A stretch of DNA of 64,000 nt. Source: Maribacter thermophilus. GTDB taxonomy: Bacteria; Bacteroidota; Bacteroidia; Flavobacteriales; Flavobacteriaceae. The position numbers and the translations under genes were made by a program. Of this stretch, positions 44,681 to 54,905 are shown in pieces. Each line of letters opens with the position of its first letter. Position 1 is the stretch's first letter. The DNA is taken from positions 2,442,520 to 2,506,519 of the forward strand of contig NZ_LDAS01000001.1 of the NCBI RefSeq assembly GCF_001020565.1, given 5' to 3'. The notes beneath the pieces are model-generated. The model made no database searches. It was not told where the DNA came from and saw only the letters and a list, made by a program, of their open reading frames with translations.

Positions 44681-46210
44681 CTATGCATTGGGTATTTGAA
44701 CAACGACCCTTGTGCCCAGAGCATCGCCAATGGTCTCATCTATAATATCCTCTATACGATAGCTATAGTGTTTTTGAAATTTTTTGGAAAAAAGATCCAG
44801 CCTGTCCCTGGTCAATGTAAGTCCCAATGATTCTTTCTTTAACGGGTTTGTCAGGTTTCTATCTTCAGAAACACGCCTACCTACCCCATTGTCGGCGATA
44901 CTTATTTCTATGGTATTGGGTAATTTGGAATATCCGACAGACAGATTCAAAAGTTTTTCGCCTTTCTTGGTCGATAGGCCATGCCAAATGGCATTCTCTA
45001 TAAAAGGCTGTAAAATAAGGGCCGGAATCATAATATTCTCTAGCTCTATACCTTCATCCGAAGCTATTTTAAACTGAATATCGTTCTTAAAGCGATCGTT
45101 CTCTATGGCTATATACATTTCCAGAATATCCAGTTCCTCTTTTAAGGAAATTTCCTCTGCTCGCGAACTCTCCAGTATACACCGGATCAGTTTAGAAAAC
45201 TTGGACAGGTAAAAAATGGCCTTTTCTTGATCGTTGTCTATAAAATAAGACTTGATGGAATTTAATGCATTAAAGATAAAATGGGGACTCATTTGGCTCC
45301 GCAGGGCATTAAGCCGTAATTGAGCAAACTTGTTCTCGAATTTCATGGTCAGTTTTTCGGTACGTTCGCGTTGCGCCTCGGCAGAAAGATCCTCGATCTC
45401 GGTTTTGGTCTGTAAGAGTTCTTCGGACAGCGTTCTATTAATACTCTCCTTCATAGTCTGGTTCTCTTCCAATTGTTGAATGTACTTTTTCTGTACCAAT
45501 GCCTTTTCCCTATATACCATTTTTTGCTCTAGCCCAATGGCCAAGGCAAAAAGCAAACTCTCTATTAATATGCCTATGTAATAGATATACAATGTTTCTC
45601 TATTGGCGGTCATGGCACGCATAGACATTACCGAGATGGCAAAATAGGAAATGACCAAAACCGACATACCGGAAAGAATATACCCTTTAATGGCCATATT
45701 GCCTTTCGCCACCATATAAAAAGCCGCAAAAAAGACGATATAACTTAAAATCAAAAACACATAGGCATGAAAATAATCTATAAGGTACGAAGAGTAATCG
45801 TTCATGTACACACCCCATAAGACTAAAAAAATGATAGAGGAAACGAGGTATGCAACATCGATTACCTTGATTGACTTCGGAAAGGTCTTCCGCAATTGCA
45901 TGATCTCTATAATAAAATAGCTAAAAAAAAGCGAGCCGAACAATTGCGACGGATAATGAATGGCCCGATCGTACACCCTCCCCAAAGAGGTATCGAAAAA
46001 ATCAGAAAAAAACACACCGTCTATATATTTTAACAGACTGGCCGCATTTACAAGAGCATAAAGGCTGTACAGCAAATAATACCTCTTTTTGTGCTGAAAA
46101 AATTGAATGAAAAAGAAAACAAAGAGATAGAACAGCACTACTACCGTTAAAAAACCAAATCCGTTCTGGTTGCTATTCTCAAAAAAAGACCTAATGGTAG
46201 CTGCCTTCAT
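44681..46210 (-). CDS. LytS-type sensor histidine kinase
   Basis: 509 residues. About seven membrane helices from 20 to 225, of the 7TM type but with no extracellular sensory domain, then a coiled coil (230-290) and the His_kinase domain with His310 in MSPHFIFNALNSIK. The ATP-binding part has PFIENAIWHG and ISIADNGVGR. It phosphorylates the response regulator encoded four bases upstream. The stimulus, likely membrane-borne, is unknown. Confidence 0.92.
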   Translation of the reverse strand: MKAATIRSFFENSNQNGFGFLTVVVLFYLFVFFFIQFFQHKKRYYLLYSLYALVNAASLLKYIDGVFFSDFFDTSLGRVYDRAIHYPSQLFGSLFFSYFIIEIMQLRKTFPKSIKVIDVAYLVSSIIFLVLWGVYMNDYSSYLIDYFHAYVFLILSYIVFFAAFYMVAKGNMAIKGYILSGMSVLVISYFAISVMSMRAMTANRETLYIYYIGILIESLLFALAIGLEQKMVYREKALVQKKYIQQLEENQTMKESINRTLSEELLQTKTEIEDLSAEAQRERTEKLTMKFENKFAQLRLNALRSQMSPHFIFNALNSIKSYFIDNDQEKAIFYLSKFSKLIRCILESSRAEEISLKEELDILEMYIAIENDRFKNDIQFKIASDEGIELENIMIPALILQPFIENAIWHGLSTKKGEKLLNLSVGYSKLPNTIEISIADNGVGRRVSEDRNLTNPLKKESLGLTLTRDRLDLFSKKFQKHYSYRIEDIIDETIGDALGTRVVVQIPNA

Positions 46211-46214
46211 CCGC

Positions 46215-46952
46215 TCAATATGACATTTTGATCAAGAACTCTTCTTTTTTATTTCTCGACACCGGAATCTTTTTATTATTGCAAAGCACTACATACCCTT
46301 CTGTTCGCAAATATTCGACCACTTTAATCGTGTGTACGATATAGGAATTATGAATGCGAAAAAAATAATCTTTCGGTAAGATCAACCCTAGATCTTTCAA
46401 CTTTTTTGATGTATAGAGCTCTTTGTTCGATTCAAGAAATACCTTTGAGTAATTACCATCAGATTCGCAATAAACGATATCCTCTACCCTAATAAAAAGT
46501 ACTTTTCCGTTTACGGGAATCTGAATCATCTTAGGGGAACCGGCTCTTGAAAGTGCCGCCAATGTCTGAAGAAATTGGTCTTGAAGATGCTCTGGGGTCC
46601 TAAGATTTTTTAGTTTTTGCACCACCGTACCGATCTCATCCGAATCTATAGGTTTTAAAAGATAGTCCAGCGCACTTTCCTTAATGGCCTGTATGGCATA
46701 TTGGCTATAAGCGGTGGTAATGATCACGGCAAAGTCGCGGAACTGTAATTGCCGCAGCAACGAAAAGCCGTTCATCTCGGGCATTTCTATATCTAAAAAA
46801 ACACAATCGGGTTTCAAATAATTTATACCCGAAAGAGCATCGTTTGCAGAGGTAAACGTATCTATAACCTTAATATCGTCCGAAAATTTCTGAAGTTCCC
46901 AAGCTAAATTTTTGATAGCGGCAGGCTCGTCATCGACTATTATTGTTCTCAT
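46215..46952 (-). CDS. LytTR family response regulator
   Basis: 245 residues. Receiver domain with acidic pair in VDDEP, phospho-acceptor Asp54 in VFLDIEMPEMNG, and the lysine in DYLLKPID. From about 140 is the LytTR DNA-binding domain (VEDIVYCESDGNYSKVFL, RIHNSYIVH). Partner of the LytS-type kinase in a two-gene operon. Its targets are unknown; nearby exported-protein genes are candidates by position only. Confidence 0.93.
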   Translation of the reverse strand: MRTIIVDDEPAAIKNLAWELQKFSDDIKVIDTFTSANDALSGINYLKPDCVFLDIEMPEMNGFSLLRQLQFRDFAVIITTAYSQYAIQAIKESALDYLLKPIDSDEIGTVVQKLKNLRTPEHLQDQFLQTLAALSRAGSPKMIQIPVNGKVLFIRVEDIVYCESDGNYSKVFLESNKELYTSKKLKDLGLILPKDYFFRIHNSYIVHTIKVVEYLRTEGYVVLCNNKKIPVSRNKKEEFLIKMSY

Positions 46953-47294
46953 GCCCTGTGTCCTGTTTTATTCTTCAAGTTATTGCCTTCTGTAGCTATA
47001 TCGGCTATACAACATGATAGATTGTAGGTATGGCTGTACAGATGGTACTATAACTGTATGGAAGGCTTTTACGGTAAAAAAAACAGAATCAACCCACATA
47101 TACATTAATCTCCGCAGTCAGCACAATATTTTTCGCTGCGCATCACCATTAAGAAATACAGGACAAAGGGACGATCCTATTTTTAATACCCGAGAAAAAT
47201 AATCGAACTGCAAACACCATTCATATGCTATAGACCAAACTAACATTTTACCTAACAATGTTCATTTATAAACCCATAAATACAATTTTTGGCT
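46953..47294. other. Divergent promoter region, two-component operon and GAF-AraC gene
   Basis: 342 bases without a gene. Around 46990-47060 there are loosely repeated segments (TAGCTATATCGGCTATACAA, GGTATGGCTGTACAGATGG) that could be regulator sites, but no clean repeat or dyad. No clear -7 element could be fixed. Confidence 0.35.
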
Positions 47295-48176
47295 ATGCAA
47301 GATCTAAACACATTAAGCACCCTAGAGGAAATTAGGGCGGTTAGTTTTTTTTCTACTTCGTTAAGCACCAAAGAATCCATTGACGAGATACTTTGGGACA
47401 TCACCAAAAACGTAATCCATCGTTTAGGGTTCGTCGACTGTGTCATATACACCTACAACCATACTACATTAGAACTGAGCCAACATGCGGCCTACGGCAG
47501 CAAAAACCCGACCGATGAGCGCATTTATAATCAAATAAGACTGGACCTAGGAGAGGGCATCGTGGGTAGTGTCGCCATCACAAAATGTGCGGAAATCATT
47601 AACGACACTTCCAAAGATCCTAGGTACATTGTGGATGACGAGCCCCGCCTCTCAGAAATATGTATACCTATTGTTATCAACGGCAATCTTTTTGGCATTA
47701 TCGACTCCGAGCACCCCGAAGCGGGCTTTTTTACCGAGAAACACCTGTGTTTGTTGAACATTATTGCATCGCTTTGCGCCCAACGGATCAAAGAACTTCA
47801 TACAAAGTCGAAAACACAGTTCAGCACGGCCCATAAATATTTTAAGAAACTGGAAGAGCTGATGCGCTTTAAAAAACTATATAGAAATCCTTGCCTTAGC
47901 CTGTCATCGGTCGCAGAAGTTTTGGGCATTTCTGCCTGTTACCTGTCTAGTATGATCAACCGTCTTTTAAACAAAAGCTTTATCGATTTTATCAATGAAT
48001 ATAGGGTAGCGGACGTGAAACAAAATCTCACTTCCAATGCATTTGCCCATTATACCATAGTTTCATTGGGCTTAGAAGCAGGCTTTAATTCTAAATCGGC
48101 CTTCTACTCCGCTTTTAAAAAACATACGGGGCTAACTCCGGTACAGTACAAGAACAGTTTGTACATGATGTCTTAA
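47295..48176 (+). CDS. GAF domain-containing AraC family transcriptional regulator
   Basis: 293 residues. The N-terminal GAF domain (about 20-165; GEGIVGSVAITKCAEIIND and IPIVINGNLFGIIDSEH) is followed by an AraC helix-turn-helix pair (LSSVAEVLGISACYLSSMI and LGLEAGFNSKSAFYSAFKK, ending HTGLTPVQYKN). GAF-AraC fusions sense a small ligand or partner protein. I use the ATG at 47295. It is placed immediately before a run of exported-protein genes and may control them, which is inference. Confidence 0.9.
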   Translation: MQDLNTLSTLEEIRAVSFFSTSLSTKESIDEILWDITKNVIHRLGFVDCVIYTYNHTTLELSQHAAYGSKNPTDERIYNQIRLDLGEGIVGSVAITKCAEIINDTSKDPRYIVDDEPRLSEICIPIVINGNLFGIIDSEHPEAGFFTEKHLCLLNIIASLCAQRIKELHTKSKTQFSTAHKYFKKLEELMRFKKLYRNPCLSLSSVAEVLGISACYLSSMINRLLNKSFIDFINEYRVADVKQNLTSNAFAHYTIVSLGLEAGFNSKSAFYSAFKKHTGLTPVQYKNSLYMMS

Positions 48177-48303
48177 TTACCATAAAACCACACAAGGCTA
48201 CTCGCCCTGTTCTTTGTCCTAATTCTTTAAAATCAAAACATCTAGGACTTCGACACTTTACCAATCTGTTAGGTTTGTTCCAATAATTTACAAATAAACA
48301 ATT

Positions 48304-48921
48304 ATGAAAACTTTTAAATTCACAAAACAATTACTTAGCCTACTGTTCATATCGAGCATGCTCATTGCTTGTTCTAAAGAAGACGGTGAAGACGGTGCCA
48401 TAGGGCCCCAAGGACCACAAGGGGAACAAGGAATTCCCGGTGAAGACGGGGCAGACGGGGCAGACGGAGAACAAGGGGAAAAAGGAGATACAGGTACCGC
48501 CAATGTTATTTATTCCGGATGGATAACCAGTGGTTTCGAAGCGAATATACTTGACGATTCGGCAACTTTTGATATTGAAGCCCCTTCGTTGACACAAGAG
48601 ATCATAGACGAGGGAGCTGTTCTGGTATATGGCCGAACAACCGGTATTGATTCAGATGTACTACCCCTGCCAATATACATTCCTACCACCCATGAAAGTT
48701 ATTACCACCGTCTTGAAGGGGTGGGACAAATACAGATACGAGTTGTTACGGATGACTCAAGTTTAATTGGAAGCACCCTATTTTCCGATTACAGGTACAT
48801 TCTAATTCCTGGTGGTGTTGAAGCTAGTAATGGAATCGGAGGTATTACAGGAAAATCCTCAACGGACTATTCAAATATGAGCTACGAAGAAATAGTGGCA
48901 CAGTTTAATATTCCCGAATAA
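48304..48921 (+). CDS. Collagen-like lipoprotein
   Basis: 205 residues. Lipobox cysteine at 23 (SSMLIACSKED), then about 12 G-X-Y triplets from residue 28 to 63 (GAIGPQGPQGEQGIPGEDG and onward) with many acidic residues, and a C-terminal beta-rich globular domain. Bacterial collagen-like lipoproteins with this form are probably trimeric stalked surface proteins. Acidic residues right after the cysteine suggest surface export. First of six exported-protein genes. Confidence 0.82.
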   Translation: MKTFKFTKQLLSLLFISSMLIACSKEDGEDGAIGPQGPQGEQGIPGEDGADGADGEQGEKGDTGTANVIYSGWITSGFEANILDDSATFDIEAPSLTQEIIDEGAVLVYGRTTGIDSDVLPLPIYIPTTHESYYHRLEGVGQIQIRVVTDDSSLIGSTLFSDYRYILIPGGVEASNGIGGITGKSSTDYSNMSYEEIVAQFNIPE

Positions 48922-49101
48922 GAAAACAGCAAAGCTCACGGCTGCTTATTAAAATGCACCGATACACCGAAAAAGGATACCCATATAACACGTGCTCTAA
49001 AAAGGCACAGCAATATGGTAACCTACAAATAGCACATTCCGTGTCTTTAAAAATCCTTTTTACCTAAAAAAACAAAACGGATCACATATAAAACATTCCA
49101 T

Positions 49102-50157
49102 ATGAAGACAATAAAGAATAGTGTAGTACTGGCCTTTTTCGGTGTATTACTTTTTGCTTTGGCTTCTTGCCAAAAAGAATATTTTGATATCTTGGAAAAC
49201 ACTGGGTCTACCGATTTAAAAATGGGCTTTACCACAGAGGCAAAGACCTTAAAAGCATACAAGTACGACCCATCCCCCATTTTACTACCTAGATACAACC
49301 ATAGCTCGCTGGTCTTTGATGACAAAATGTGGATATTGGGCGGAAATATCAAAGATGCTTCCAATATAAGCGATGATGTCCTCTTTAGCACCAATGGAGC
49401 GCAATGGAACAACCTGAACGAAAAAGCAAACTTTCCGCAACGCACCCTTTTTGGAGCTACCGTCTTTCAAAATAAAATGTGGATTGCAGGCGGATTGGTC
49501 AAAGGGTCGGAGTTTAGCAACAGTATAAAAAACGATGTTTGGTCATCTGAAGATGGTATTGAATGGAACTTGGTTACGCCAAAGGCGCAATTCGCCAAAA
49601 GAGCGGACCATACTCTTACCGCATTCAATGGCTCTTTATGGCTGATCGGAGGATTGGGCCATAATGCAAAAACGGATACGTTTGAAACATACTCCGATAT
49701 TTGGAGGAGTTCCGATGGACTTAATTGGACACTAGTAACAGCCAATGCGCCTTTTGGAAAGCGAAAGTGGCATGCCACCATCGTCTATGACAATAGAATA
49801 TGGCTCCTAGCAGGTGGAGACAACAGCTATAACAGTGATGTATGGTACAGCCATAACGGTTATCAATGGATACTGGCAACAGATGAAGCCCCCTTTTCCA
49901 CAAGGGGATTGCACGGACTGACCACAGATGGTGAGCAGATGTGGCTCACCGCAGGACACCTAGCAGAATACGGTGATGAAAATTACTTTGGACTTCAAAA
50001 TGATATTTGGCGAAGCACCAACGGTATAGATTGGTTCGAGGTAAAAACTTCGCAAGAATTCCCCAAACGTTCCCAACATTCATCGGTATTCTTTGAAAAT
50101 AAACTATGGGTGATCAATGGCTCTCAACATAACGATGTTTGGTCTTTTGAATACTAA
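49102..50157 (+). CDS. Kelch-repeat lipoprotein
   Basis: 351 residues. Signal with LASC lipobox (Cys23), then about six kelch-type beta-propeller repeats, each with a [MKI]W-[IL]-GG strand (MWILGGN, MWIAGGL, LWLIGGL, IWLLAGG, MWLTAGH, LWVINGS) and an alternating DVW-S-DG-W hairpin. It probably forms a single propeller on the outer face of the membrane. Ligand unknown. Confidence 0.85.
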   Translation: MKTIKNSVVLAFFGVLLFALASCQKEYFDILENTGSTDLKMGFTTEAKTLKAYKYDPSPILLPRYNHSSLVFDDKMWILGGNIKDASNISDDVLFSTNGAQWNNLNEKANFPQRTLFGATVFQNKMWIAGGLVKGSEFSNSIKNDVWSSEDGIEWNLVTPKAQFAKRADHTLTAFNGSLWLIGGLGHNAKTDTFETYSDIWRSSDGLNWTLVTANAPFGKRKWHATIVYDNRIWLLAGGDNSYNSDVWYSHNGYQWILATDEAPFSTRGLHGLTTDGEQMWLTAGHLAEYGDENYFGLQNDIWRSTNGIDWFEVKTSQEFPKRSQHSSVFFENKLWVINGSQHNDVWSFEY

Positions 50158-50244
50158 ACAATACCGCAAGTAACAATCACCAAAAACATTAAACCAGATC
50201 TTAAATCCCCGTACCAAAACTGGTTACGGAAAAAATAAAAAAAC

Positions 50245-50877
50245 ATGAAAACATCAACGATAACAGCACTCCTTTTATGTACCTGCCTATTCGTCTGCTC
50301 GTCTTTATTTGCACAACAATTGGCCAATACGATCAAGGTAACCGCTAGGATAATTTATATAGACCCCGATCCTACATACAAAGCAACCATTTCTTTAAGC
50401 AATCCCTCAAGTTATGATTATGACTACGTGAGTCTTGCCGAATTAAAGGAGCGTTTTAAAAAAAGAGTGGAGGAAAGTGGTCTTTCATGGAGCAGTATAA
50501 AGGAACACCCCTTCACTTTTGGCTATGAAACCATGAGGTATAACAAAGAGGGAGCCCTGTACCTATACGAAACAAAATCTGTAGAAGAGATGAAACAGTT
50601 CCTTAACATTAAACTGCCTATTCTTCAAGTTTTAGATATGAGTTCGGCCATCGTAATCGATGATAAAGAAGTGGAAATAATTACTCAAATGGCGCTGGAC
50701 AAATCTTTTAAACAAGCTACGTTACTGGCAAAAAATGCAAAAAAGAAATTGGGAGGCATTATAGCATTAAAAGAGAATGGCGCCCTTTTTAATAAACCTT
50801 ATGAGGTGAGTCTATACTACGACAGACCACCGGGCGAATTTTATTATGACATGGAAGTCACCTATGAAATCCAGTAA
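50245..50877 (+). CDS. Exported SIMPL (DUF541)-like protein
   Basis: 210 residues. A cleavable signal peptide (ending SSLFAQ) and then a domain with the two-part alpha/beta pattern of SIMPL proteins, including the late QATLLAKNAKKKLGGII segment. Recognition is by general pattern, not by diagnostic residues, so the family call is moderate. No lipobox. The next gene starts ten bases after the stop. Confidence 0.6.
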   Translation: MKTSTITALLLCTCLFVCSSLFAQQLANTIKVTARIIYIDPDPTYKATISLSNPSSYDYDYVSLAELKERFKKRVEESGLSWSSIKEHPFTFGYETMRYNKEGALYLYETKSVEEMKQFLNIKLPILQVLDMSSAIVIDDKEVEIITQMALDKSFKQATLLAKNAKKKLGGIIALKENGALFNKPYEVSLYYDRPPGEFYYDMEVTYEIQ

Positions 50878-50887
50878 AGGAAATCAT

Positions 50888-51685
50888 ATGAAAAAGAAGT
50901 CAAAACATATCATTACCATACTACTGGCAGCTATATTGCTAGCGGCCTGCTCTAAGGACAAAGACAGTCCGGAGCCTATGGTAGCGGACACAACCCCACT
51001 ACCCGAGGTTATTTCATTAGTCTATAGTGATGGTCGCACAGTAGTCTATACAATGGATTACAATGATTCGCTTCAATTAACAACAATGGACATGTCATAT
51101 AAAACGGATGATGGGGAAAATATTTTGGAAACGGAAATACGCTATAACGAAACAGGCTTGATTACAACAATAGATGTAGCGGATGTAAGCAACGATTTAA
51201 ATTTTGCAACCACTTTTGATTACGATCCAAATAATGATATCTCCGATATAGTATTCATGATAAATGGAGATGTACAACCCACCATGTACGAATTTGACCC
51301 CGACAACCATATTTATAAACTTGATGGGGATTTAGGTAACTTTCCAATGGGTTGGGGGTTTGACCCCAACAACAATCTAACGGAAATGGTTATCAGTGAC
51401 AATTATTTCCAATTGACCTCTTCAGGAAACGAAAAAGGCGTTTTCCATAATCTAGACCCACAACCGGCATTGACGATATGGCATGGATTGCTTTTCTATT
51501 TGGCCCCCTATGAGCTTTATTTTTTCCACCAAAAAGACCTGGACCGTTTTGAGGCCATCGACTTCTATTACGATTATAGGGAGAAGGTACGTGATGGCGA
51601 CGGAAACCTGATCGCTTTCAAAATGATTCCCGACGACCCTCTGGCTGGCACCATCAGCTATACCATTAGCTACAAGGAATATTGA
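50888..51685 (+). CDS. Lipoprotein, unknown function
   Basis: 265 residues from the ATG at 50888; an upstream start would read inside the SIMPL gene. Lipobox LAAC (Cys20) followed by SKDKDSPEP. The body has repeated Y/D/N-rich beta strands such as TTFDYDPNNDISDIVFMING and GFDPNNNLTEMVI that recall YD/RHS-type beta folds. No catalytic motif. Probably co-transcribed with the SIMPL-like gene. Confidence 0.7.
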   Translation: MKKKSKHIITILLAAILLAACSKDKDSPEPMVADTTPLPEVISLVYSDGRTVVYTMDYNDSLQLTTMDMSYKTDDGENILETEIRYNETGLITTIDVADVSNDLNFATTFDYDPNNDISDIVFMINGDVQPTMYEFDPDNHIYKLDGDLGNFPMGWGFDPNNNLTEMVISDNYFQLTSSGNEKGVFHNLDPQPALTIWHGLLFYLAPYELYFFHQKDLDRFEAIDFYYDYREKVRDGDGNLIAFKMIPDDPLAGTISYTISYKEY

Positions 51686-51734
51686 GCAAACACCCCTTTT
51701 AAAGAGTAAATACAAACGTTATTACATAACTCAA

Positions 51735-52424
51735 ATGAAAACGATAAAAACCCACCACATACCAAAGGCCTATTTTGTTTTTTTTATCCTTATAGCTTCG
51801 CTACAATCTTGTAACAAAGATGATGCCCCCGTTGTTGAAGCGCCCGTACTTAGTGTTACACCAAATCTCACTGCCAGTTATTTCCAACAAGGCGAAAGCC
51901 CTTTACCAGAAGTACAATGGAATGGTGATCGGGGCAAGTTTGGATTGGAAAATACAATCCAAGGACTTTCAATTGATTCAGAAACCGGACAATTATTGTG
52001 GGACACTTCATTGCCCATTGGTGTACATACCGTAATATTATTTGCATATAACGAGGCTGGTAAAGATTTGGCATCGCTCACCATCAACAACCCATTTCAA
52101 GGAACTTTCAAGGGCACTTATTCACCAAGTGTTTCTATTATCAATGTACTTAATAGAACTATGGAAATAAATTTTAATATTGATGGTACCTTAAGCGGCT
52201 ATACCCAATCAGAATTGGACGATGGCACCCTATTGGGACCTAATTATTTTAGTGGCAATTATGTGCTTTTGGAAACTAAAATGGAGGGCACGTTCGAATA
52301 CGAGGATGGTGAATCTACCACCCCTTTTGACGCGGACCTAGACCAACAAGGAAAACTCACAGGACAATATTCTGCCGAATTCCTAACCGTTACATTTGAA
52401 CTTAATGTTCTCATACAACAATAG
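51735..52424 (+). CDS. Lipoprotein with putative immunoglobulin-like domain
   Basis: 229 residues. Signal and lipobox LQSC (Cys26) followed by NKDDAP. An Ig-like first half (about 35-120; LSIDSETGQLLWDTSLPIGV resembles cadherin/putative-Ig repeats) and a beta-barrel-like C-terminal half. The second half resembles small lipocalin-like lipoproteins of Bacteroidota, but I cannot fix the family. Confidence 0.65.
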   Translation: MKTIKTHHIPKAYFVFFILIASLQSCNKDDAPVVEAPVLSVTPNLTASYFQQGESPLPEVQWNGDRGKFGLENTIQGLSIDSETGQLLWDTSLPIGVHTVILFAYNEAGKDLASLTINNPFQGTFKGTYSPSVSIINVLNRTMEINFNIDGTLSGYTQSELDDGTLLGPNYFSGNYVLLETKMEGTFEYEDGESTTPFDADLDQQGKLTGQYSAEFLTVTFELNVLIQQ

Positions 52425-52619
52425 ATTATGCCACGGCATCAACCATTGTTCACCAAGACTAAATTTTGACACCTTACATACCGGAAATAAAGCTCTAAAG
52501 AAAACCGCCCAAGCAAGTCCAGATTCTTTGAAACCCAAACTTTCAGGACACTAAAACGATTCCCCACTTCTATTTTTATAACACCCCGAACAAATACCTG
52601 CGGGTAAAAAATATCGACT

Positions 52620-54242
52620 ATGAAAAAGACACTTTTTTTATCCGCTTTAACCCTTATTGGCATTCTCGTTATTGGGTGTAACAATGATGATGACAATAGA
52701 ACTACAGAACCAAAAAATGAAAAGCCCGGGAATTTCACGGTGCAAGTCACTCAAATTACCGCTAATAGTGCAGTACTGACCTGGAATGCAGCCGTAGACC
52801 CAGACAAGGACAAAGTAACCTATACCGTATTTCTGGGAGACAACGAAATGCAGGTAAATCTGGAGACCACCGAATTTCTTTTGGAAAACCTAACCGCCCA
52901 AACCGATTATAACGGTACGGTAACAGCTTCCGACGGTAATGGGAATACCTCTACGAGCACATTTGATTTTACAACGGAAGAAGATGAAGAAGAGATTACC
53001 GATGGCGTCTCCATAGCCTGGGAAAAATCCTTCGGGGGTTCTAAAATTGACATCGCCAATTCCCTACAACTAACGGTCGATGGCGGGTATATCATAGCAG
53101 GCACTTCCGACTCCGATGATGGCGATGTAGGCGGCAACAATGACGCTGAAGGATATCTAGGAGGTGATTTTTGGATCATTAAATTGAACCATTCAGGAGA
53201 TTTAATGTGGGAAAACAACCTAGGGGGCTCGAGTGACGAGGCCGGAAATGACATACAACAAACCGCAGATGGCGGATATATCGTAGTAGGAATGACCGAT
53301 TCCAATGATCAGGATATTAGTGGAGACACCTCTTCTGCCGATGTTTGGATCGTTAAACTTGATGGATCTGGAAATTTGGTTTGGGAAACCAATTACGGTG
53401 GCGGATCCGGTGACGAAGCCAATGCCGTTGAGCAAACTGTAGATGGCGGATACATCGTTGCCGGTTTCACAGGCTCTTCAGATGGTGATGTAGAAGATAA
53501 TAATGGGGGATTGGATTATTGGATACTTAAGCTGGACGCTAACGGAACCTTGGTGTGGGAAACAACCCTCGGAGGCAGCGGGTTCGACATTGCAAAATCG
53601 ATAGAGCAAACATCGGACGGAGGCTATATTGCTGCAGGATATTCAGAATCTCCCGATGGTGATGTGGGAGGTAATTATGGCGAGAGGGACTATTGGGCGG
53701 TAAAGTTAGATGCCACAGGAAATTTAGCATGGGAAACCCATCTTGGAGGTTCATTGGATGACTACGCCTATGACATTCACCAAACCTCGGACTTAGGGTA
53801 TATTGTGGCTGGGTATTCAGAATCTTCAGATTTTGATGTAAGTGACAATTACGGGAATAGGGATTATTGGGTCGTTAAACTGAATACGACCGGAGCGATT
53901 ACTTGGGAAGTCAACCTTGGCAGTTCATCGGTAGACGGTGCGCGTTCTATTCAACAAACAACAGACGGAGGGTATATTGTTGCAGGAAATGCGGGAGAAA
54001 CCGATTTTGATGTAAGCGGTTCTGTTAACGGAGGGTTTCTCGATTATTGGGTCGTTAAATTGACTCCAGAGGGGGTACTGTCTTGGGAAATAAGTATGGG
54101 AGGTCCGGAAAACGATTATGCGACCACTATTCAGCAAACGAATGACGGATACATCGTATCGGGTTATGTTTCAGGTCCTGGTGGGGATATTAGTGGATCG
54201 GGTAAAGGCCAGTGGGATTACTGGGTCGTAAAACTGGAGTGA
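52620..54242 (+). CDS. Lipoprotein with fibronectin-III domain and seven-blade propeller
   Basis: 540 residues. Lipobox VIGC (Cys20) and NNDDDN, then an FN3-like domain (about 38-118), then an acidic linker. Seven repeats of about 50-63 residues follow from 132 to the end, each with W-E-x-x-x-GG, a Q-T-x-DGGYI-x-AG core, and D-Y-W-x-VKL. Seven units would make one complete propeller. No T9SS C-terminal sorting signal is seen, so surface export would be by the lipoprotein route. Confidence 0.85.
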   Translation: MKKTLFLSALTLIGILVIGCNNDDDNRTTEPKNEKPGNFTVQVTQITANSAVLTWNAAVDPDKDKVTYTVFLGDNEMQVNLETTEFLLENLTAQTDYNGTVTASDGNGNTSTSTFDFTTEEDEEEITDGVSIAWEKSFGGSKIDIANSLQLTVDGGYIIAGTSDSDDGDVGGNNDAEGYLGGDFWIIKLNHSGDLMWENNLGGSSDEAGNDIQQTADGGYIVVGMTDSNDQDISGDTSSADVWIVKLDGSGNLVWETNYGGGSGDEANAVEQTVDGGYIVAGFTGSSDGDVEDNNGGLDYWILKLDANGTLVWETTLGGSGFDIAKSIEQTSDGGYIAAGYSESPDGDVGGNYGERDYWAVKLDATGNLAWETHLGGSLDDYAYDIHQTSDLGYIVAGYSESSDFDVSDNYGNRDYWVVKLNTTGAITWEVNLGSSSVDGARSIQQTTDGGYIVAGNAGETDFDVSGSVNGGFLDYWVVKLTPEGVLSWEISMGGPENDYATTIQQTNDGYIVSGYVSGPGGDISGSGKGQWDYWVVKLE

Positions 54243-54321
54243 TCCATGTATCGAAAACAGTAGAAACCTTACGCGAACAACAATTCTACGAATGTTTTTA
54301 AAATGACTCAAATATAAAACA

Positions 54322-54345
54322 AAAGGCCTCATACATGAGGCCTTT
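54322..54345. terminator. Bidirectional hairpin ending the lipoprotein run
   Basis: Perfect 11-bp arms AAAGGCCTCAT and ATGAGGCCTTT with an AC loop, preceded by AAA and followed by TTTG, between converging genes. Confidence 0.85.
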
Positions 54346-54373
54346 GTGTAATGTATCGGGTTTTCTTATATGG

Positions 54374-54580
54374 TTATAACGAACAACCCTTTCCTTCTTT
54401 TTTGATTCCCAATTTCATGAGTATAACCTCTAACAGGCACCATTTCGTAAAGGCCGATTGTATCATGTTCACCCCTATAAAAACGGTAAACCATAGCCAG
54501 TTGATGTTTACGTATACGGCCAATACCACACTCAACAAGATGAATGTACCTACGATTACTCTAAAATATGTGTTTAGCAT
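54374..54580 (-). CDS. DUF2892 inner-membrane protein
   Basis: 68 residues with two hydrophobic helices (YFRVIVGTFILLSVVLAVYV and NWLWFTVFIGVNMIQSAFT), the family cysteine region TKWCLLEVILMKLGI and a short basic C-terminus. DUF2892 (YgaP C-terminal-type) proteins often sit with rhodanese and sulfide genes. Last gene of the RND operon; the spacing of 19 bases to the PII-like gene supports co-transcription. Confidence 0.85.
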   Translation of the reverse strand: MLNTYFRVIVGTFILLSVVLAVYVNINWLWFTVFIGVNMIQSAFTKWCLLEVILMKLGIKKEGKGCSL

Positions 54581-54599
54581 TTGATTCTTTTTTTTATGA

Positions 54600-54905
54600 T
54601 TAAATCGATTTTTCTATAGGCACCACCACCGCCTTTATGGGGTTGTTGGTTTCCAGTTCTTCGTTAAATTTCTTGATCAGTTCGAACAGGGCATCGATCT
54701 TGTCCTCCTCGGTAAAGGAGAAGAACATGCTCGACTCCACGCCCCCTTTTTCACTGGGGAACCAGCTTGCGGTACGCAACATGGAGGCCCCATTTTTATA
54801 CCCATCGATATCGGAGCCGCTATAGTTCTTGATATCAGCCTTTTTAAAGAGCCGTAGGATCTCCTTTTCGTATTCCTCTACGACGGTTACTATCAGTAGT
54901 TTCAT
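54600..54905 (-). CDS. PII-like small protein linked to the RND pump
   Basis: 101 residues of PII/CutA-like ferredoxin-fold pattern: MKLLIVTVVEEYEKEILRLF, a loop containing SGSDIDGYKNG, and a C-terminal VVVPIEKSI strand. Genes of this kind commonly follow RND pump genes in Bacteroidota and probably modulate the pump or sense a ligand. No uridylylation tyrosine motif is recognisable. Eleven bases after the pump gene. Confidence 0.75.
   Translation of the reverse strand: MKLLIVTVVEEYEKEILRLFKKADIKNYSGSDIDGYKNGASMLRTASWFPSEKGGVESSMFFSFTEEDKIDALFELIKKFNEELETNNPIKAVVVPIEKSI

Follow-up and report, generated by a model that had tools for sequence, protein, structure and literature searches.

Lcl from Legionella is a trimeric, lollipop-shaped surface protein, composed of a collagen-like stalk and a C-terminal head, that binds glycosaminoglycans (PMC11162425, in the passages concerning Lcl), and the lipoprotein export signal of Bacteroidota is described as a Cys followed by Lys, Asn or Ser plus acidic residues (PMC5080379, in the portion dealing with this signal). 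Two further points of comparison are the hybrid two-component systems of polysaccharide utilisation loci (PULs) and the SIMPL/DUF541 proteins, including BP26 and the Simpl-like protein of C. jejuni. The locus considered here belongs to Maribacter thermophilus and lies in a 64,000-nucleotide stretch of its 4.05 Mb genome (the window; contig NZ_LDAS01000001.1, positions 2,442,520 to 2,506,519 of the forward strand). From left to right it comprises a histidine kinase and a LytTR response regulator on the minus strand, followed on the plus strand by a GAF-AraC regulator and by six genes with export signals, denoted A to F (48304-54242). We put at roughly 70% the probability that GAF-AraC controls this locus as a regulon, having two or more promoters here, whose products are exported binding proteins, probably anchored at the cell surface; the genes are read as one regulon because the same operator and promoter precede A and F and are kept across related loci.

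Each of the systems named above shares something with this locus and differs from it elsewhere. Like Lcl, protein A bears a G-X-Y collagen-like stalk with a C-terminal head, but A is predicted from its sequence to be lipid-anchored at its N-terminus and is accompanied by a dedicated putative regulator and an operator. The lipoproteins of the locus resemble the export-signal surface lipoproteins of Bacteroidota in bearing a Cys followed by Lys, Asn or Ser and acidic residues, whereas no SusC/SusD pair, TonB-dependent transporter, glycoside hydrolase or other carbohydrate enzyme was found among the ten proteins scanned (44681-54905). A PUL was ruled out on this gene set; the likeness to PUL hybrid systems lies in the hybrid sensor encoded upstream in most related loci with a two-component gene, and the second regulator, GAF-AraC, with its own operator, is a further difference. 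The predicted fold of C is that of the SIMPL/DUF541 proteins, but C is encoded inside a probable surface-lipoprotein regulon.

The regulon reading is carried by an inverted repeat of 33 bp (consensus approximately GTCCTGATTCTTTCAAACTGAAAGATTCCGGAC; hereafter the operator), which precedes both A (48216-48249, plus strand) and F (52517-52550, plus strand) and ends 20 bp ahead of a -7 box of the Flavobacterium type. Relatives of GAF-AraC were retrieved by a contig profile search with an eight-sequence alignment, the best 80 of 308 matches being retained, and in 43 of these loci (L061-L103) the match extends to the end of the HTH; their genes were called with our own open reading frame (ORF) caller. 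Alignment of the gaps between GAF-AraC and A displayed a block common to several genera. The motif TAnnTTTG, given as the Flavobacterium -7 box in the relevant part of PMC9723704, occurs in 25 of 35 such gaps, whereas 500 mononucleotide shuffles gave 4.3 on average and 10 at most. Anchoring on this box revealed the inverted repeat in 26 loci, of which 25 share a register, L067 being offset by one base, and the symmetry of the repeat is 64% at the best register versus 21-39% at the four other registers tried. The -7 box of the A promoter, TAGGTTTG (48270-48277, plus strand), follows the first operator by 20 bp, and the -7-like box of the F promoter, TATTTTTA (52571-52578, plus strand), follows the second at the same distance. 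With the box placed at -12 to -5, the repeat falls at about -66 to -33, which suggests an activator-type position.

A position weight matrix built from 19 of the 26 sites, with the window left out, was used to scan 48 sequences, namely the 43 retrieved loci, the window and four extra loci (L038, L040, L058, L170) from the sampled genomes, which are numbered G and are in some cases the same records as retrieved loci (e.g. G023/L061 and G036/L065). Over these 0.93 Mb, with the 19 training sites counted in, the scan returned 64 distinct sites scoring above 16, and TAnnTTT lies 19-20 bp downstream of 54 of them. The window operators score 34.8 (A) and 33.4 (F), the next best place in the window scores 4.7, and the best score after these two in about 0.89 Mb of distinct sequence from the same genome (22%) is 10.0. 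A background of 107 loci (1.85 Mb, with some overlap) gave one match above 12, with a score of 12.6. The operator is present in 42 of the 43 retrieved GAF-AraC loci, or 23 of the 24 outside the matrix training, and the record titles of the 42 give 16 genus names, with Muricauda and Allomuricauda taken as two. An earlier motif pattern was discarded as too loose (12 of 26 aligned promoters matched, along with 13 places on the window plus strand), and a sigma-70-type scan was uninformative at this locus, with 21 promoter-like sites against 21.7 expected.

The candidate reader of this operator is GAF-AraC itself (47295-48176, plus strand), in which GAF_2 (1.6e-11, 45.0 bits) and HTH_18 (1.6e-15, 57.6 bits) both exceed their cut-offs. 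Among A loci lacking a nearby GAF-AraC gene, 31 of 32 are also without the operator; the exception, L170, is an unlinked A gene in a Zobellia genome that encodes GAF-AraC on another contig. The Zobellia set is split, with GAF-AraC, A and C on one contig and D-E-E-F on another, and in the latter unit (L038) operator sites scoring 29.0 and 18.5 precede D and F. Both the L170 A gene and the unlinked D-F unit look like trans-targets by their sites. The operator persists in GAF-AraC loci with no two-component gene upstream, and five Kordia loci carry it although no A gene was found within them. The operator thus tracks GAF-AraC loci, and this co-occurrence makes GAF-AraC most likely the binder. In place of A, the operator precedes a protein of 652-658 residues in L058 and in four of the Kordia loci (L093, L094, L097 and L099; 654-658 residues in these four); the one copy scanned, from L097, contains BTRD1 repeats and a beta-lactamase domain.

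Related gene sets are found in other genera as well. The closest relative among the matches listed is Maribacter sp. MMG018, with a GAF-AraC 94% identical, and 35 of 44 loci (window included) have an A gene at most three genes downstream of GAF-AraC; the other nine are L087 and L091 (A further down), L090, the five Kordia loci and L098 (contig edge). These A counts derive from a profile made with an in-frame alignment (A4), the rows of which were first chosen with an earlier profile having three of seven seed rows out of frame (L054, L055 and L057). A two-component gene is found at most two genes upstream in 19 of the 35 A-bearing loci, a hybrid sensor in 16 of those 19, and at least one of B to E is present in all 19 compared to 5 of the 16 loci without it (Fisher 1e-5, kinship ignored), such that the upstream two-component gene and the extended gene set occur together. 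In many loci the GAF-AraC/A pair sits between genes that, judging by their sequences, are a rimK/astE-like pair and sdhCAB. The initial annotation, made from the sequence of this stretch, had noted two sensing systems ahead of the lipoprotein genes and suggested that the set could build one surface assembly for adhesion or recognition. This interpretation is partly supported: the shared operator and promoter of A and F, the related sets in other genera and the close kinase/LytTR homologues that face a collagen-type gene even at loci without GAF-AraC tie the genes to one another and to the adjoining regulators, and the products may form one outward-facing, adhesive assembly. The annotation had named genes varying independently among relatives as evidence to the contrary, and this was seen in part: B to F vary, while the regulator and A are near-constant and the split Zobellia set bears the operator on both contigs.

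The ORFs lie where they had been placed initially, with the start codons of two revised (GAF-AraC to 47295 from 47289, and D to 50888 from 50846); the intergenic gaps on the plus strand from GAF-AraC through F are then 127, 180, 87, 10, 49 and 195 bp. All six exported proteins are encoded on the plus strand. A (48304-48921) is a predicted lipoprotein (CSKEDGED) with a collagen-like stalk (Collagen, 2.4e-6; PF01391 at 27.6 bits, just over the cut-off of 27.2) and a C-terminal head (48493-48918) predicted by AlphaFold2 as a β-sandwich (pLDDT 86). No convincing Pfam family was found among 47 A heads, which matched 13 families at E up to 1, DUF1566 of the Lcl head not among them, and a PDB sequence search with the head gave no relative. 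Fold comparison was likewise unconvincing: Foldseek gave nothing better than E 0.026, and the VIA matches, to chains of phage tail and Ig type, did not exceed Z 5.7, with room for folds beyond those listed. B (49102-50157) is a kelch-propeller lipoprotein (CQKEYFD; Kelch 7.4e-27). C (50245-50877) carries an ordinary signal peptide with no lipobox; 17 of 20 members of its family, not including the window protein, match PF04402 at E 1 or lower (best 3.9e-8), and its predicted model (pLDDT 84.5) finds SIMPL proteins as the top Foldseek matches (7c50, E 4.4e-5; 4hvz, 5.9e-5). C, which the initial annotation had left without a label, is thus by family profile and modelled fold a SIMPL/DUF541 protein.

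D (50888-51685) is a lipoprotein (CSKDKDS) with no assigned fold, the homologues of which are linked to GAF-AraC in other genera, and neither the D nor the E family gave a Pfam match above cut-off in the members scanned. E (51735-52424; CNKDDAP) is possibly Ig-like, with a He_PIG match at E 0.15 in a single member of the four scanned from its family, and has a tandem paralogue in G023 and G036. F (52620-54242; CNNDDDN) combines FN3 (fn3, 1.1e-9) with a repeat β-propeller (delta_60 repeat, E 2.7e-7, under its own cut-off). The binding-type folds put forward initially are confirmed by Pfam for Collagen, Kelch and fn3, and the Ig-like label of E, for which the window protein has no Pfam match, was inferred. 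A role in anti-phage defence was rejected, as PADLOC on nine proteins matched only the response regulator, at about 20 bits over the receiver domain.

Five of the six exported proteins do have a lipobox followed at once by acidic residues, as annotated, and all five satisfy the rule of two acidic residues in six after the Cys that is used in the part of PMC12578637 concerned with this signal. Of 37 lipoproteins predicted by a custom script in 400 kb of the same genome, 18 satisfy the rule as well (one-sided p 0.04), and with five residues the figures are 4/5 against 14/37 (p 0.10). Since the signal is so common in the background, the resemblance to the export signal stands but lies only weakly above it; it is the conserved operator that lifts the grouping clearly above chance. 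Among relatives (L061-L103 and the window, members of at least 40 bits), those with a recognised lipobox have at least two acidic residues in five in 40/44 (A), 16/25 (B), 8/9 (D), 11/16 (E) and 8/8 (F) cases, and a lipobox was not recognised in 7/51, 2/27, 1/10, 2/18 and 0/8, respectively. A lipobox-like match occurs in 2 of 21 C relatives, with acidic residues absent there. The lipoproteins of the locus are read as probably surface-anchored.

The first of the sensing systems consists of a 7TMR-DISM histidine kinase (44681-46210, minus strand; 7TMR-DISM_7TM 9e-12, His_kinase 1.5e-21), just outside the range covered initially, and its partner LytTR response regulator (46215-46952, minus strand; Response_reg 1e-22, LytTR 4.9e-18). 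Maribacter MMG018 (L061) and M. aquimaris (L063) have this pair at the corresponding position, where a hybrid sensor replaces it in M. luteus (L062) and M. polysiphoniae (L064); the one hybrid sensor scanned, from L054, contains Reg_prop, Y_Y_Y, HisKA, Response_reg and HTH_18. Homologues at least 58% identical are divergent to GAF-AraC-A (window, L061, L063) or to a collagen-type gene (G029, G069) in 5/5 loci. In G029 (kinase 58%, regulator 67%) they face seven A genes, the nearest of them short, with no GAF-AraC, and in G069 (kinase 58%) a G-X-Y gene outside the A head profile. In G176 a more distant pair (kinase about 35%, regulator 48%) adjoins a hybrid sensor and the remnant of a broken A gene. 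Among 15 loci with weaker kinase homologues (about 35-39%; L204-L218), a G-X-Y gene stands opposite the pair in two (L206, and L210 with a 1090-residue protein), and the others face different, mostly exported, proteins, L214 ending before the regulator; the collagen link is therefore limited to close kinase homologues. The seven tandem collagen-stalk lipoprotein genes of G029 occupy 7225-11550 of L165 (G029:C39), the one nearest the regulator encoding 128 residues, and are followed by a gene that looks SIMPL-like in sequence. The A remnant of G176 (L188, G176:C12, about 8.3-8.8 kb) lies between the hybrid sensor and the LytTR/kinase group. In L059 and L060, a GAF domain with about 48% identity to the one in the window regulator is fused to a histidine-kinase-like part and adjoins kinase/LytTR genes.

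Several observations weigh against a single regulon under GAF-AraC. One GAF-AraC locus among those scanned, L090, has no operator, the F promoter box TATTTTTA matches the consensus incompletely, and TAnnTTT is missing at 19-20 bp from the Zobellia D site. Where a genome encodes GAF-AraC, the operator is absent from 12 of 13 A loci unlinked to that gene, so that membership of the regulon does not extend to every A gene. Direct repeats, rather than inverted ones, are the usual targets of AraC proteins, and a different dimeric protein could therefore be the binder. Apart from GAF-AraC and A, gene content is variable, with B (kelch), C (SIMPL), D, E and F coming and going among lineages, and the acidic enrichment after the lipobox is weak (p 0.04-0.10). 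Away from GAF-AraC, A loci are likewise linked to sensors only weakly (12 of 28, versus 40 of 169 genes, p 0.04, and versus 5 of 21 lipoproteins, p 0.23). The locus counts are phylogenetically related and not independent events, and they come from the best 80 of 308 matches.

The binder might instead be a two-component response regulator, of the hybrid sensor or of the LytTR type, with GAF-AraC a co-target. Such an arrangement would account for the 19 of 35 A-bearing loci that have a two-component gene no more than two genes upstream and for kinase/LytTR pairs facing collagen-type genes also where GAF-AraC is absent, but the repeat occurs where no two-component gene adjoins and is missing at A loci that have no GAF-AraC but do have a LytTR pair or a hybrid sensor (L165, L166, L172, L173 and L177), making this explanation unlikely. 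A different reading keeps the regulon and conflicts with a recognition role, in that SIMPL and propeller proteins would tend the outer membrane as an envelope-stress or quality-control set with no part in adhesion. C as a SIMPL protein speaks for it, as does the weak similarity of B to BamI, which the pertinent part of PMC12578637 describes as a surface propeller of the Bacteroidota BAM. As a candidate BamI (NF053688), however, B was rejected at 44.2 bits, far below the cut-off of 370, and the near-constant member of the set is a collagen-stalk protein and not a chaperone. The set is also patchy, unlike housekeeping genes: GAF-AraC is found in 4 of 36 genus genomes and in 12 of 149 family genomes, four of the latter with the GAF part only (full-length in 8 of 149). 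We regard this reading as doubtful, if somewhat less so than that of a response regulator as binder.

By far the least probable account is a loose collection, in which unrelated lipoprotein genes were brought near the regulators by chance or recombination. The varying membership among relatives and an acidic signal common across the genome are what would be expected of it; the recurrent gene sets and the common operator, found on unlinked copies too, are not.

A second collagen/kelch/lipoprotein set, without the operator, occurs in the same genome (G000:C1, about 3817-3824 kb; L161, 12378-18976). It is accompanied by what are presumably, judging by sequence, the gene of an ECF-type sigma factor in divergent orientation and one resembling an anti-sigma gene, and in some relatives by a large protein that we take to be CHAT-like. 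Sets resembling L161, some without kelch, were found in G005, G023, G030, G036, G069, G096, G108, G164 and G192, with the operator in none. Beyond F, on the opposite strand, a small protein (54600-54905) with a sub-threshold P-II match (E 0.01) is kept in G023, and beside it lies a large gene on that same opposite strand that we take, judging by its sequence, to encode an RND-type transporter.

Building on the observed gene set, its recurrence, the operator and the promoter spacing, a model may be proposed for regulation by GAF-AraC. The regulator would sense a signal via its GAF domain, and its dimer would bind the 33-bp inverted repeat and switch on A-B-C-D-E, perhaps as one transcript, and F together from the A and F promoters. 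The two-component sensor would provide a second input, from the divergent 7TM kinase/LytTR pair here and, in relatives, more often from a hybrid sensor of the propeller type whose gene lies upstream of GAF-AraC. On the outer membrane the products would form a coat, with A as a lipid-anchored, putatively trimeric collagen "lollipop", B, D, E and F as propeller and Ig/FN3 lipoproteins, and C as a soluble SIMPL component, and may form a physical complex. Such a coat could allow the cell, on induction, to recognise a partner cell, a polymer or a surface as ligand, a role in adhesion or recognition that is suggested by the domain types and by analogy with Lcl. More tentatively, and with less than even odds in our judgement, the locus may represent a new class of inducible surface apparatus in marine Flavobacteriaceae, in which a GAF-AraC switch with its own operator acts in cis and in trans on a mix-and-match coat of cooperating lipoproteins, with SIMPL as the soluble part, and lineages swap the binding parts and keep the switch and the stalk.

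No paper on this locus was found among the literature matches listed, and few operators of AraC-type regulators are, to our knowledge, defined in environmental Bacteroidota. What had been a vague cluster of surface proteins becomes a testable regulon, with one operator, one candidate regulator and two sites in the window, and the operator matrix predicts targets in other marine genera. The locus offers a first handle on collagen-stalk lipoproteins in environmental Bacteroidota, including a head domain with no Pfam family, and the switching of adhesion or recognition proteins on demand becomes directly testable in these organisms.

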